From the NCBI GenBank assembly GCA_009787835.1, contig WQSN01000007.1, positions 1,561-65,560 of the forward strand: a stretch of 64,000 bases of DNA. Reading direction: 5' to 3'. The stretch comes from Treponema sp. Its GTDB lineage: Bacteria > Spirochaetota > Spirochaetia > Treponematales > Breznakiellaceae. How positions within the stretch are numbered: the first letter of the stretch is position 1; every line of letters starts with the position of its first letter. The notes beneath the pieces are model-generated. The model had not been told where the DNA came from. It ran no database searches and worked only from the letters and a program-made list of their open reading frames with translations. The translations under genes and the position numbers were made by a program. Positions 1-2,787 of this stretch are shown piece after piece.

Positions 1-833
1 TCGGTGTAATTATAATTAAGGTCTACCCCGCGTTCGAAAGTACTGGCAGAACCTTGCGCGGCACCCTGAACGTAAACTGAAAAGTAACCGCTTCTTACTA
101 CAATGCGGTCTAAATATACATTTATATCTACTCCTGCTCTCATAAAACGCGGACGAGGCCAGAATGTATATGTGCCGTTAGCGATTGCCGCTGGTGCTGG
201 TGCGGCCGCTGTACTGCCTCCTGAAGCTGCCGCGCCGCTTGTAGTTGCCGCCTGTCGGGCTCCAGCCGCAGTTGTCGCAGCCGGACCTCCCATTAACGCT
301 ACGATGGTTTCCCCCGCCGCTATATTTTTGTTGAACTGAGCCTGCACTTTAGCAGTTTCCACATCAAGAGCGCGCACTGTTATTCTGTACCGGCTGCCTA
401 ATGTACTTACCGAGCCTGTAACGATTGACTGCGCGCCGATAAACCGTCCTATCGACAGCGCCTGGTCATCGTCTACCTCTCCTGATGTCTGAAAGTTTTG
501 TTCCTTTCGTATTTCATCAAGACGCTGACGATCCACTACGGAAAAATTTTTGTCGTTTACAGCGTTAGCGATTAGCTCATCGATAATATAATCAGATAAC
601 GCAGCGGAACCGGATTGAATATTTAAAATGACAATAAAATTTCCGGCTGGCACATAGTTGTTAATATAGTCCGACGCTTCACGGATAGTTTCATCCAGTT
701 CATCAGGCGCTAATTGAGCGGATGATGCAGCGGATCTGTTGGTTGTAGCTGCCGGCGCGGAAGTGAAACCAACACAGCTTGCCAGTACGATTAACATGGT
801 TAATAAAATACCTGTTAATTTTAAATTTTTCAT
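1..833 (-). CDS. CsgG/LpoB-like lipoprotein, C-terminus cut off by window edge
   Basis: This is an open reading frame of 277 codons that runs off the left edge, so its C-terminus is not seen. It starts at an ATG at 833 with an AAGGAG-type ribosome binding site 7 bases upstream. The N-terminus is a lipoprotein signal with lipobox LASC and predicted lipidated Cys20. Residues about 50-170 (for example NFIVILNIQ, DRQRLDEIRKEQNFQ, GRFIGAQSIVTGS) resemble the CsgG/LpoB-like fold of treponemal lipoproteins, in which the 'FSVVDRQRLDEI' and 'GAQSIVTGS' signatures recur. An Ala/Thr/Gly-rich linker follows (about 180-220), then a region of possible beta structure. It lies 41 bp downstream of the Zn-ribbon gene and is probably its operon partner. 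The role is unknown; a periplasmic outer-membrane-anchored partner of envelope machinery is inference. Confidence 0.82.
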   Translation of the reverse strand, partial: MKNLKLTGILLTMLIVLASCVGFTSAPAATTNRSAASSAQLAPDELDETIREASDYINNYVPAGNFIVILNIQSGSAALSDYIIDELIANAVNDKNFSVVDRQRLDEIRKEQNFQTSGEVDDDQALSIGRFIGAQSIVTGSVSTLGSRYRITVRALDVETAKVQAQFNKNIAAGETIVALMGGPAATTAAGARQAATTSGAAASGGSTAAAPAPAAIANGTYTFWPRPRFMRAGVDINVYLDRIVVRSGYFSVYVQGAAQGSASTFERGVDLNYNYT

Positions 834-1189: not shown

Positions 1190-1224
1190 ATATTGATTTT
1201 TTGTATAAAAAGGATTGCCTTTCT

Positions 1225-1244
1225 ACCTGTTAATTATCATAGGT
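1225..1244. promoter_or_regulatory. Lux-box-like palindrome, promoter-proximal copy
   Basis: The 20-bp sequence ACCTGTTAATTATCATAGGT is an imperfect inverted repeat of the form ACCTRT-N8-AYAGGT, which resembles the classic LuxR lux box. Its centre is about 30 bp from a TATACA -10-like element (1202-1207, minus strand), so it would sit near -40 of a promoter reading into the Zn-ribbon/lipoprotein operon. Binding is inference. Confidence 0.5.
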
Positions 1245-1268
1245 TTGCTTGTTTTTGGGTTATTTTTT

Positions 1269-1288
1269 ACCTATTAATTCTAATAGGT
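1269..1288. promoter_or_regulatory. Lux-box-like palindrome, distal copy
   Basis: ACCTATTAATTCTAATAGGT is a perfect 8-bp inverted repeat with a 4-base centre. It is 44 bp from the proximal copy, about four helical turns, so both would face the same side of the DNA. It lies just downstream of the gene for a LuxR-type regulator and upstream of the Zn-ribbon operon. Confidence 0.52.
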
Positions 1289-1317: not shown

Positions 1318-2787
1318 TTAGTTCTTGTACTTGGCGAACAGTTCCGCTCTGCTTTGTATTCCCAGTTTTCTGTACAGATTTGTAGTATGGAAATTAACTG
1401 TTGGATAACTTATTTTCAATGTAAAAGCGATTTCTTTGGGAGCCTTGCCTTTCAGCAGCATGGTAAATACTTCATGTTCTCTTTCTGTCAGATTTAAATT
1501 GTCCTTTATATTGATTACTTCCGTTTCCGCCAGGCTCTGGGAAAATTCAGCCATATTCTTCAGTTTTAGACCGTCTGTCCAGTCGGCTTCGAACAGTTTT
1601 TTCTGCAGGAATGGAAGGATCAAAATACATAATGAACTTAAAAAAACCACAATGCCAAGAGCTATTGTATGGTACGAGCCTTCATAACGATCAAAAACCT
1701 GAGATAAAAAACCGGAAACAAAAAAGTATTCAATAAATAAAATCACGCAAAAAAGCTGATACATTCTTTTTGATTTGCTTTTCTTAATCGCGCCTGAACA
1801 AAGATAATAAATAATTACATAACCCAGACCGTCTCCAAGGCCGTAAATAAGGGAGCCTGTAAAATGAGCCGCGTCCGAGTTATAGTTTACAATTGTGAGT
1901 CCCAATAATGAAAAAGCCAGAAACATCAGCCAAACATAAAGAGAGTTGCGGTTGCTTATCAGCATTATTAAAGTTATAACCAAAATGGAAGAGAACTGCC
2001 CAAGCCCGTAAGGCAGACTGAATATAATGTTTTCAGCTACTTCAATATAGTTGATCATGCACATTATCAGGTAATAAACGATATGAAGCCCAATTACTAT
2101 TATTACTGTGGAGTTTTTACCGCCCGCGACGGAATTTCTGTCTTCCGTGTTTAAATTGCGCAGCGTATCCTGATTGGTCTCTGATATTTCATTTTCATGC
2201 ACAGGTTTTTGGATATTTCTGTCCAGCAGAAAAACCATCGCCAGGTAGAATATCATTATTATAATGCCGCCCCATGTTTTATAAAAATCCTGCACAACCG
2301 GGAATGCCCTGTAGACTGTGTAATAAAGACTGTAATATAAAATTATCAGCGTTAGACCGGACAGCCTTTCAACATTATTCAGTTTGAAGCAAAAGATAAA
2401 AAAAGCGCAGGCTGCGCAAATGCCGTTAAAGAACTGAAAAGCCATGAATACCGCAAGCTTCGCGATATCCAATGTCAGCCATAATTGAACAGGAATCAGG
2501 ACAGCGCTGCATGCCGCCGCCGCTTTTAACATGGGAACAATCAGTTTCTCCGGCACAAAGGCAAGCGTAAGCCAGCCCAGACCCAGAGTATAAAGCATCA
2601 GTTCATAGGATTGTAATCCGGCGAATTCGATATTAAGGTTAAAATAGCGGAAATCACCGAGTATAACTGACAAAGGAAAAATCAACAGCGCGGGCCACAG
2701 ATCCTGTCTGAGATTCCTCAGGGACAGCTCGTCTCTTGTCTGTATAAATCTTTTAATACTGGTAATAAGACCTGACAAATTATACAC
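1318..2787 (-). CDS. Membrane-bound LuxR-type transcriptional regulator with about 12 TM segments
   Basis: This is a 489-residue protein. Residues about 30-395 form some twelve hydrophobic helices in two groups, separated by a hydrophilic loop (about 190-220), an MFS-like layout. Residues about 425-487 are a LuxR/GerE helix-turn-helix: 'LTEREHEVFTMLLKGKAPKEIA' contains the usual TxRExEV start and the segment 'SYPTVNFHTTNLYRKLGI' is the recognition helix. Such one-component regulators with a polytopic sensor are known, notably as small-molecule responsive regulators in Eggerthellaceae; they have no phosphoacceptor receiver domain. The ligand cannot be read from sequence. The likely target is the adjacent downstream operon, given the two lux-box-like sites in the 128-bp gap. 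Confidence 0.88.
   Translation of the reverse strand: MYNLSGLITSIKRFIQTRDELSLRNLRQDLWPALLIFPLSVILGDFRYFNLNIEFAGLQSYELMLYTLGLGWLTLAFVPEKLIVPMLKAAAACSAVLIPVQLWLTLDIAKLAVFMAFQFFNGICAACAFFIFCFKLNNVERLSGLTLIILYYSLYYTVYRAFPVVQDFYKTWGGIIIMIFYLAMVFLLDRNIQKPVHENEISETNQDTLRNLNTEDRNSVAGGKNSTVIIVIGLHIVYYLIMCMINYIEVAENIIFSLPYGLGQFSSILVITLIMLISNRNSLYVWLMFLAFSLLGLTIVNYNSDAAHFTGSLIYGLGDGLGYVIIYYLCSGAIKKSKSKRMYQLFCVILFIEYFFVSGFLSQVFDRYEGSYHTIALGIVVFLSSLCILILPFLQKKLFEADWTDGLKLKNMAEFSQSLAETEVINIKDNLNLTEREHEVFTMLLKGKAPKEIAFTLKISYPTVNFHTTNLYRKLGIQSRAELFAKYKN

Follow-up and report, generated by a model that had tools for sequence, protein, structure and literature searches.

Genes and palindromes at the locus

The analysed window, a 64,000-nucleotide stretch of a Treponema sp. 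contig, carries a luxR-type regulator gene, a Zn-ribbon gene and a lipoprotein gene, all on the minus strand (Table 1). A sequence-only reading had placed two lux-box-like palindromes between the regulator gene and a Zn-ribbon/lipoprotein operon. This placement holds, with one clarification: since all three genes lie on the minus strand, the palindromes are downstream of luxR, whose stop is at 1318, and upstream of the Zn-ribbon ORF. Both proposed 20-mers match ACCTRT-N8-AYAGGT exactly, so that the window has two exact sites with the 20-bp length and ACCTRT/AYAGGT arms of a lux box, and the distance of 44 bp given for them is correct when measured from start to start.

Table 1. Features of the regulator–operon locus, in window coordinates
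Feature	Position	Strand	Description
CsgG/LpoB-like lipoprotein gene	3..833	-	Second gene of putative operon; start at 833, 3' end outside window
Zn-ribbon gene, 104 aa	875..1189	-	First gene of putative target operon; ATG 35 bp from proximal site
AAAAAT	1196..1201	-	Weak -10-like hexamer in conserved slot; offset 23; poor match to TATAAT, candidate by position
TATACA	1202..1207	-	Earlier -10 candidate; offset 17, 5 bp closer than relatives' -10
Proximal palindrome	1225..1244	-	Minus strand ACCTATGATAATTAACAGGT; exact ACCTRT-N8-AYAGGT match; predicted promoter-side operator half of pair
24-bp linker, two A-tracts	1245..1268	-	Minus strand AAAAAATAACCCAAAAACAAGCAA; 11-bp A-tract phasing as in relatives' linkers
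Distal palindrome	1269..1288	-	Minus strand ACCTATTAGAATTAATAGGT; exact ACCTRT-N8-AYAGGT match; 42–44 bp spacing class
Regulator gene (luxR)	1318..2787	-	12-helix MFS-like membrane domain and C-terminal GerE/LuxR HTH, residues 432–483
Recognition-helix codons	1363..1407	-	Residues 461–475, YPTVNFHTTNLYRKL; 462, 465 and 466 associate with operator half-sites across relatives

The C terminus of the regulator matches Pfam GerE with an E-value of 2.6e-16, and the closest solved relatives of this HTH include GerE, NarL and VraR. An AlphaFold2 model built from a 35-sequence alignment (mean pLDDT 83) contains twelve long helices in two groups of six ahead of the HTH, in agreement with the twelve membrane helices proposed earlier; a simple hydropathy scan detected 8 helices only. 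By architecture, the GerE match and the helix number place the protein among the 10–12-TM LuxR one-component regulators. The best matches in a Foldseek search of the PDB are MFS transporters. Since their TM-scores are moderate (about 0.4–0.66), the MFS likeness is a resemblance of fold and no evidence of transport. As modelled, the sensor is an MFS-like 12-helix fold and not an autoinducer domain. The predicted lack of such a domain is borne out by Pfam, as PF03472 was found neither in the regulator nor in the window genome, while the same search was positive in an E. coli control. The LuxI synthase domain PF00765 gave no match in the genome, nor in any control genome. By the domains tested, the palindromes resemble lux boxes, yet the system is not LuxI/LuxR quorum sensing.

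The Zn-ribbon protein has a conserved Cys pattern and a predicted structure with a pLDDT of 85; no curated family matched it in Pfam and NCBIfam searches. The lipoprotein matches Pfam CsgG (1.5e-11), and its NCBIfam LpoB match falls below the cut-off.

Pattern searches of the 3.08-Mb genome retrieved the window pair as the only two exact ACCTRT-N8-AYAGGT matches. Sites with at most one mismatch numbered 15, versus 31 for a reversed-pattern control, and single sites with one or two mismatches are frequent by chance. Because near-matches are no commoner than the control, single sites represent background and the exact pair does not; a scattered single-site regulon in this genome was dropped on the same grounds. 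One further operator pair exists in the window genome (C71, L005:4849-5045), flanked by a truncated luxR tail on one side and a GH5 cellulase gene on the other. It is a decayed cassette with a surviving operator.

A recurrent promoter layout in relatives

Among 200 genomes of the family, the exact pair occurs in the window only. The site sequence is not fixed in relatives and drifts along with the recognition helix, so it is the layout that reveals conservation. A looser pattern (two copies of CCTRY-N8-RYAGG) yielded about 21 pairs with A+T linkers, plus a few GC-rich or tandem-repeat matches; by our count from tables, 15 of these pairs with A+T linkers have a LuxR-HTH gene no more than 1.4 kb away. 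A sequence-blind palindrome scan of 44 regulator loci returned 22 pairs at 41–45 or 52–55 bp, while a Markov control gave 0 and wrong spacings gave 2; both scans were run after the first pairs had been seen, and their spacing windows are not independent of the data. Almost all named relatives are MAGs of Treponema or Spirochaetaceae, with isolate names that we take to denote termite-gut samples; two more are Clostridiales Family XIII MAGs. The refuting condition attached to the earlier reading, loss of the palindromes in relatives with an equal gene order, was checked and did not hold: in G171, G179, L095 and L099 the regulator is followed by palindromes and then by the Zn-ribbon gene. The design is not confined to this locus; the same promoter layout recurs across related genomes. 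By these comparisons, the window palindromes are an instance of a conserved promoter design in which such sites usually come in pairs. About a quarter of the 12-TM regulators, by our own count, have no recognizable pair, including a paralogue in the window genome (C42, L017:528-2009) that has a VNSH helix and no recognizable palindrome pair downstream.

Two other loci are of separate interest. In one Clostridiales Family XIII genome (L126:3624-3800), a perfect ACCCATAAACTTTTATGGGT site lies downstream of a regulator with 39% identity, and TAGATT comes 22 bp further on; transfer between phyla is possible. At L077:4923-6005, the N-terminal part of a LuxR gene is replaced, as judged by eye, by a transposase-like stretch, which suggests an insertion into the regulator gene.

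The start-to-start spacings (n = 32) are 42–44 bp in 21 pairs and 53–54 bp in 10, with one pair at 51 bp. The two main classes are consistent with one helical turn gained or lost, and the suggestion that both window sites occupy the same helix face is thereby upheld. The linkers consist of 51% A, and their A-autocorrelation has maxima at 11 and 22 bp and minima at 6 and 16. For a hand-picked set of 19 linkers, chosen to thin close relatives, the phasing amplitude was 0.38 compared with a maximum of 0.13 in 2000 shuffles. Phased A-tracts bend DNA, and the linker DNA is probably bent.

The position of the -10 element is similarly constrained. TAnnnT starts exactly 22 bp from the proximal 20-mer in 30 of 45 promoters and at 21 bp in 5, while every other offset is seen in at most 6, the 45 entries including some duplicates or close relatives. 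With this offset, the site would have its centre near -44 and reach as far as the -35 region, and the class II geometry originally proposed is thus recovered as a class II-like position in the relatives, the window's own -10 being poor. TATACA had been described as lying about 30 bp from the proximal copy. The figure is right from centre to centre (17 bp edge to edge), but the hexamer is out of register with the conserved -10 slot, which starts 22 bp from the site.

These features raise the prospect that the family circuit is real and the window copy has decayed, so that it no longer drives transcription or does so from a shifted start. TATACA is 5 bp too close, the conserved slot has no leading T, and the same genome harbors the decayed cassette with its truncated luxR tail. 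Against this, the window retains its two palindromes, its two A-tracts, a full-length regulator and the ATG distance, and the sister genome G171 has the same AAAAAT hexamer, there at offset 22. We therefore regard decay as improbable, though it is the most serious of the alternatives, and the window's own copy is presumably active.

A Zn-ribbon gene follows such sites at six loci, the window and five others, with two sensor types; L090, where the Zn-ribbon gene sits behind a divergent promoter with degenerate sites only, was left out of this count. Other putative targets behind such sites encode OB-fold (BOF) proteins, lipoproteins, HlyD-type proteins and small HTH proteins, and envelope functions predominate. 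The recurrence of the layout and of the Zn-ribbon target favors, as a prediction, the proposed local control of an envelope lipoprotein operon. The Zn-ribbon start codons are 34–38 bp from the site in five loci (35 in the window), for which reason the mRNAs may be leaderless. In the window (1189) and at L095, L099, L097, L098 and L125, the start codons are located 34–35 bp from the site, near the expected transcript start. At L006:266-2393, the Zn-ribbon gene is followed by two tandem, closely similar CsgG/LpoB-like lipoprotein genes; the second copy lies beyond the window edge.

Covariation of recognition helix and operator

Among 33 regulators with an assigned operator, operator similarity correlates with similarity of the recognition helix (r = 0.41) and not with that of the sensor (r = 0.04). 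Each operator was attributed to the closest regulator, in part by eye, and the relatedness of the sequences makes the correlations not fully independent. For the 23 12-TM regulators, the helix–operator correlation is 0.55, and 0.47 as a partial correlation given the sensor (0 of 3000 label permutations, which leave shared ancestry in); the sensor–operator correlation given the helix is -0.02. Of the helix positions tested, 462, 465 and 466 alone show an association with the half-site, and 465 and 466 presumably fall on base-contacting positions of NarL. Five tabulated regulators with a VHHH helix have CTCACC..GGTGAG-type sites on the same contig, located upstream of an OB-fold operon in the inspected cases. 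The regulator L069 matches the 12-TM regulators L102, L105 and L124 in its helix and almost completely in its operator, although it carries an unrelated, extracytoplasmic sensor domain with a single TM helix.

Five regulators share this other architecture (L069:3652-4995, L073:3310-4695, L074:141-1487, L075:37-1515 and L090:5468-6967). Each starts with a signal-peptide-like segment and continues with a glycine-rich repeat domain of about 310 residues, a single strong TM helix and, at the cytoplasmic C terminus, a LuxR HTH, which is the only part that Pfam detects.

Across these relatives, the operator sequence appears to follow the HTH recognition helix and not the sensor. Together with the sensor swap in L069, this tracking indicates that the regulator most likely has its own operator in the palindromes, which supports the earlier prediction of a lux-box-like operator for the neighboring membrane LuxR protein. 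The helix and the sites changing together hint at how target choice is set in a little-known receptor family. A different HTH protein with the same helix, either a small stand-alone LuxR protein or a LuxR paralogue with an extracytoplasmic sensor, could in principle own the sites and make the neighboring regulator incidental: at L097 and L098, a small LuxR-HTH gene with the same VLYH helix comes after the sites, and one-TM-sensor regulators in other genomes share the operator type. In the window genome, however, the other full-length relatives have different helices (VNSH, VHHH), and across loci the sites track the helix of the adjacent regulator. We thus consider this assignment unlikely.

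Proposed mechanism and relation to known systems

Taken together, the comparisons lead us to propose, with a probability of roughly 80%, that the palindromes are a tandem operator of the adjacent membrane LuxR protein and serve local, class II-like activation of the Zn-ribbon/lipoprotein operon. The MFS-like 12-helix domain would sense a ligand, and the cytoplasmic NarL/LuxR-type HTH would bind both sites as dimers. With the two sites on one helix face and joined by phased A-tract DNA, the proximal dimer would abut the -35 region and activate the operon from a class II-like position.

We infer activation rather than repression. The sites could conversely be operators for repression, or mainly for luxR autoregulation, rather than for activating the Zn-ribbon operon: in L073 and L075 the pair is situated between divergent regulator and target genes, and in L070 one pair precedes the regulator itself. 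At most loci, however, the pair follows luxR and precedes a different gene, and the site reaches the -35 region without covering the -10 element or the start; the characterized 12-TM LuxR proteins of Coriobacteriia are activators (PMC9734109). Such a role is accordingly given little weight. Chance palindromes, a terminator or a dispersed repeat can practically be dismissed: chance often yields single sites with one or two mismatches, but the window genome has no second exact pair, relatives repeat the layout with a fixed -10 spacing, and the A+T-rich arms are not followed by a T-run, so that composition and copy number rule out the terminator and repeat readings.

A more speculative extension of the tandem-operator model, which we put forward as tentative, is that two receptor dimers grip the promoter with its A-tract-bent linker and hold the DNA at the membrane. 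The HTH and the operator pair might then constitute a constant output unit, in which one sensor has been exchanged for another, unrelated one (an MFS-like or an extracytoplasmic repeat domain), with a readable code between helix residues and half-sites.

The individual elements have counterparts in well-studied regulators. In the LuxI/LuxR promoters of Vibrio fischeri, a 20-bp lux box of the ACCTGT..ACAGGT type abuts the -35 region in a class II-like manner. The window palindromes are of this type, and the proximal one would take a similar position, but the regulator is membrane-bound and lacks an autoinducer-binding domain, and the sites are paired with A-tract linkers. The HTH belongs to the same fold family as that of the NarL/FixJ response regulators, whereas the window protein has no receiver domain or phosphorelay and its sensor is fused directly to the HTH. 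Activators of the ToxR/CadC type have an N-terminal OmpR-type winged helix and one TM helix. In the window regulator, too, the sensor anchors the DNA-binding domain at the membrane; in contrast, this protein carries a C-terminal LuxR-type HTH after 12 helices. The L069-type relatives also have one TM helix, but with a C-terminal LuxR HTH.

The nearest known counterparts are DadR, HcdR and CadR of Eggerthella lenta, which belong to the 10–12-TM LuxR regulators of Coriobacteriia; membrane LuxR regulators abound in some gut bacteria, with 83 in one E. lenta strain, the TM domains share low identity, and catechol dehydroxylases are the targets of the characterized members (PMC9734109). Common to these proteins and the window regulator are the N-terminal 12-helix membrane domain, the C-terminal LuxR-type HTH, the apparent lack of a LuxI partner and a gene adjoining its presumed targets. 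The window regulator differs in coming from another phylum, in having envelope targets instead of catechol dehydroxylases, and in its proposed operator of two palindromes at a fixed distance. Neither palindromes nor inverted repeats are described in the main text of that study (PMC9734109), no published operator for membrane LuxR proteins was found in the literature searched, later papers included, and searches on Treponema or termite LuxR proteins and spirochaete lux boxes returned nothing beyond the Coriobacteriia work. The spirochaete set offers a natural series of regulators with matched predicted operators. It opens operator recognition, spacing rules and targets to direct tests, and it could allow orphan sensors to be coupled to known promoters as reporters for ligand discovery. 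The feature is real and its parts are ordinary in comparison with these systems; the novelty is that membrane LuxR proteins of these spirochaetes have a conserved, putative operator system.
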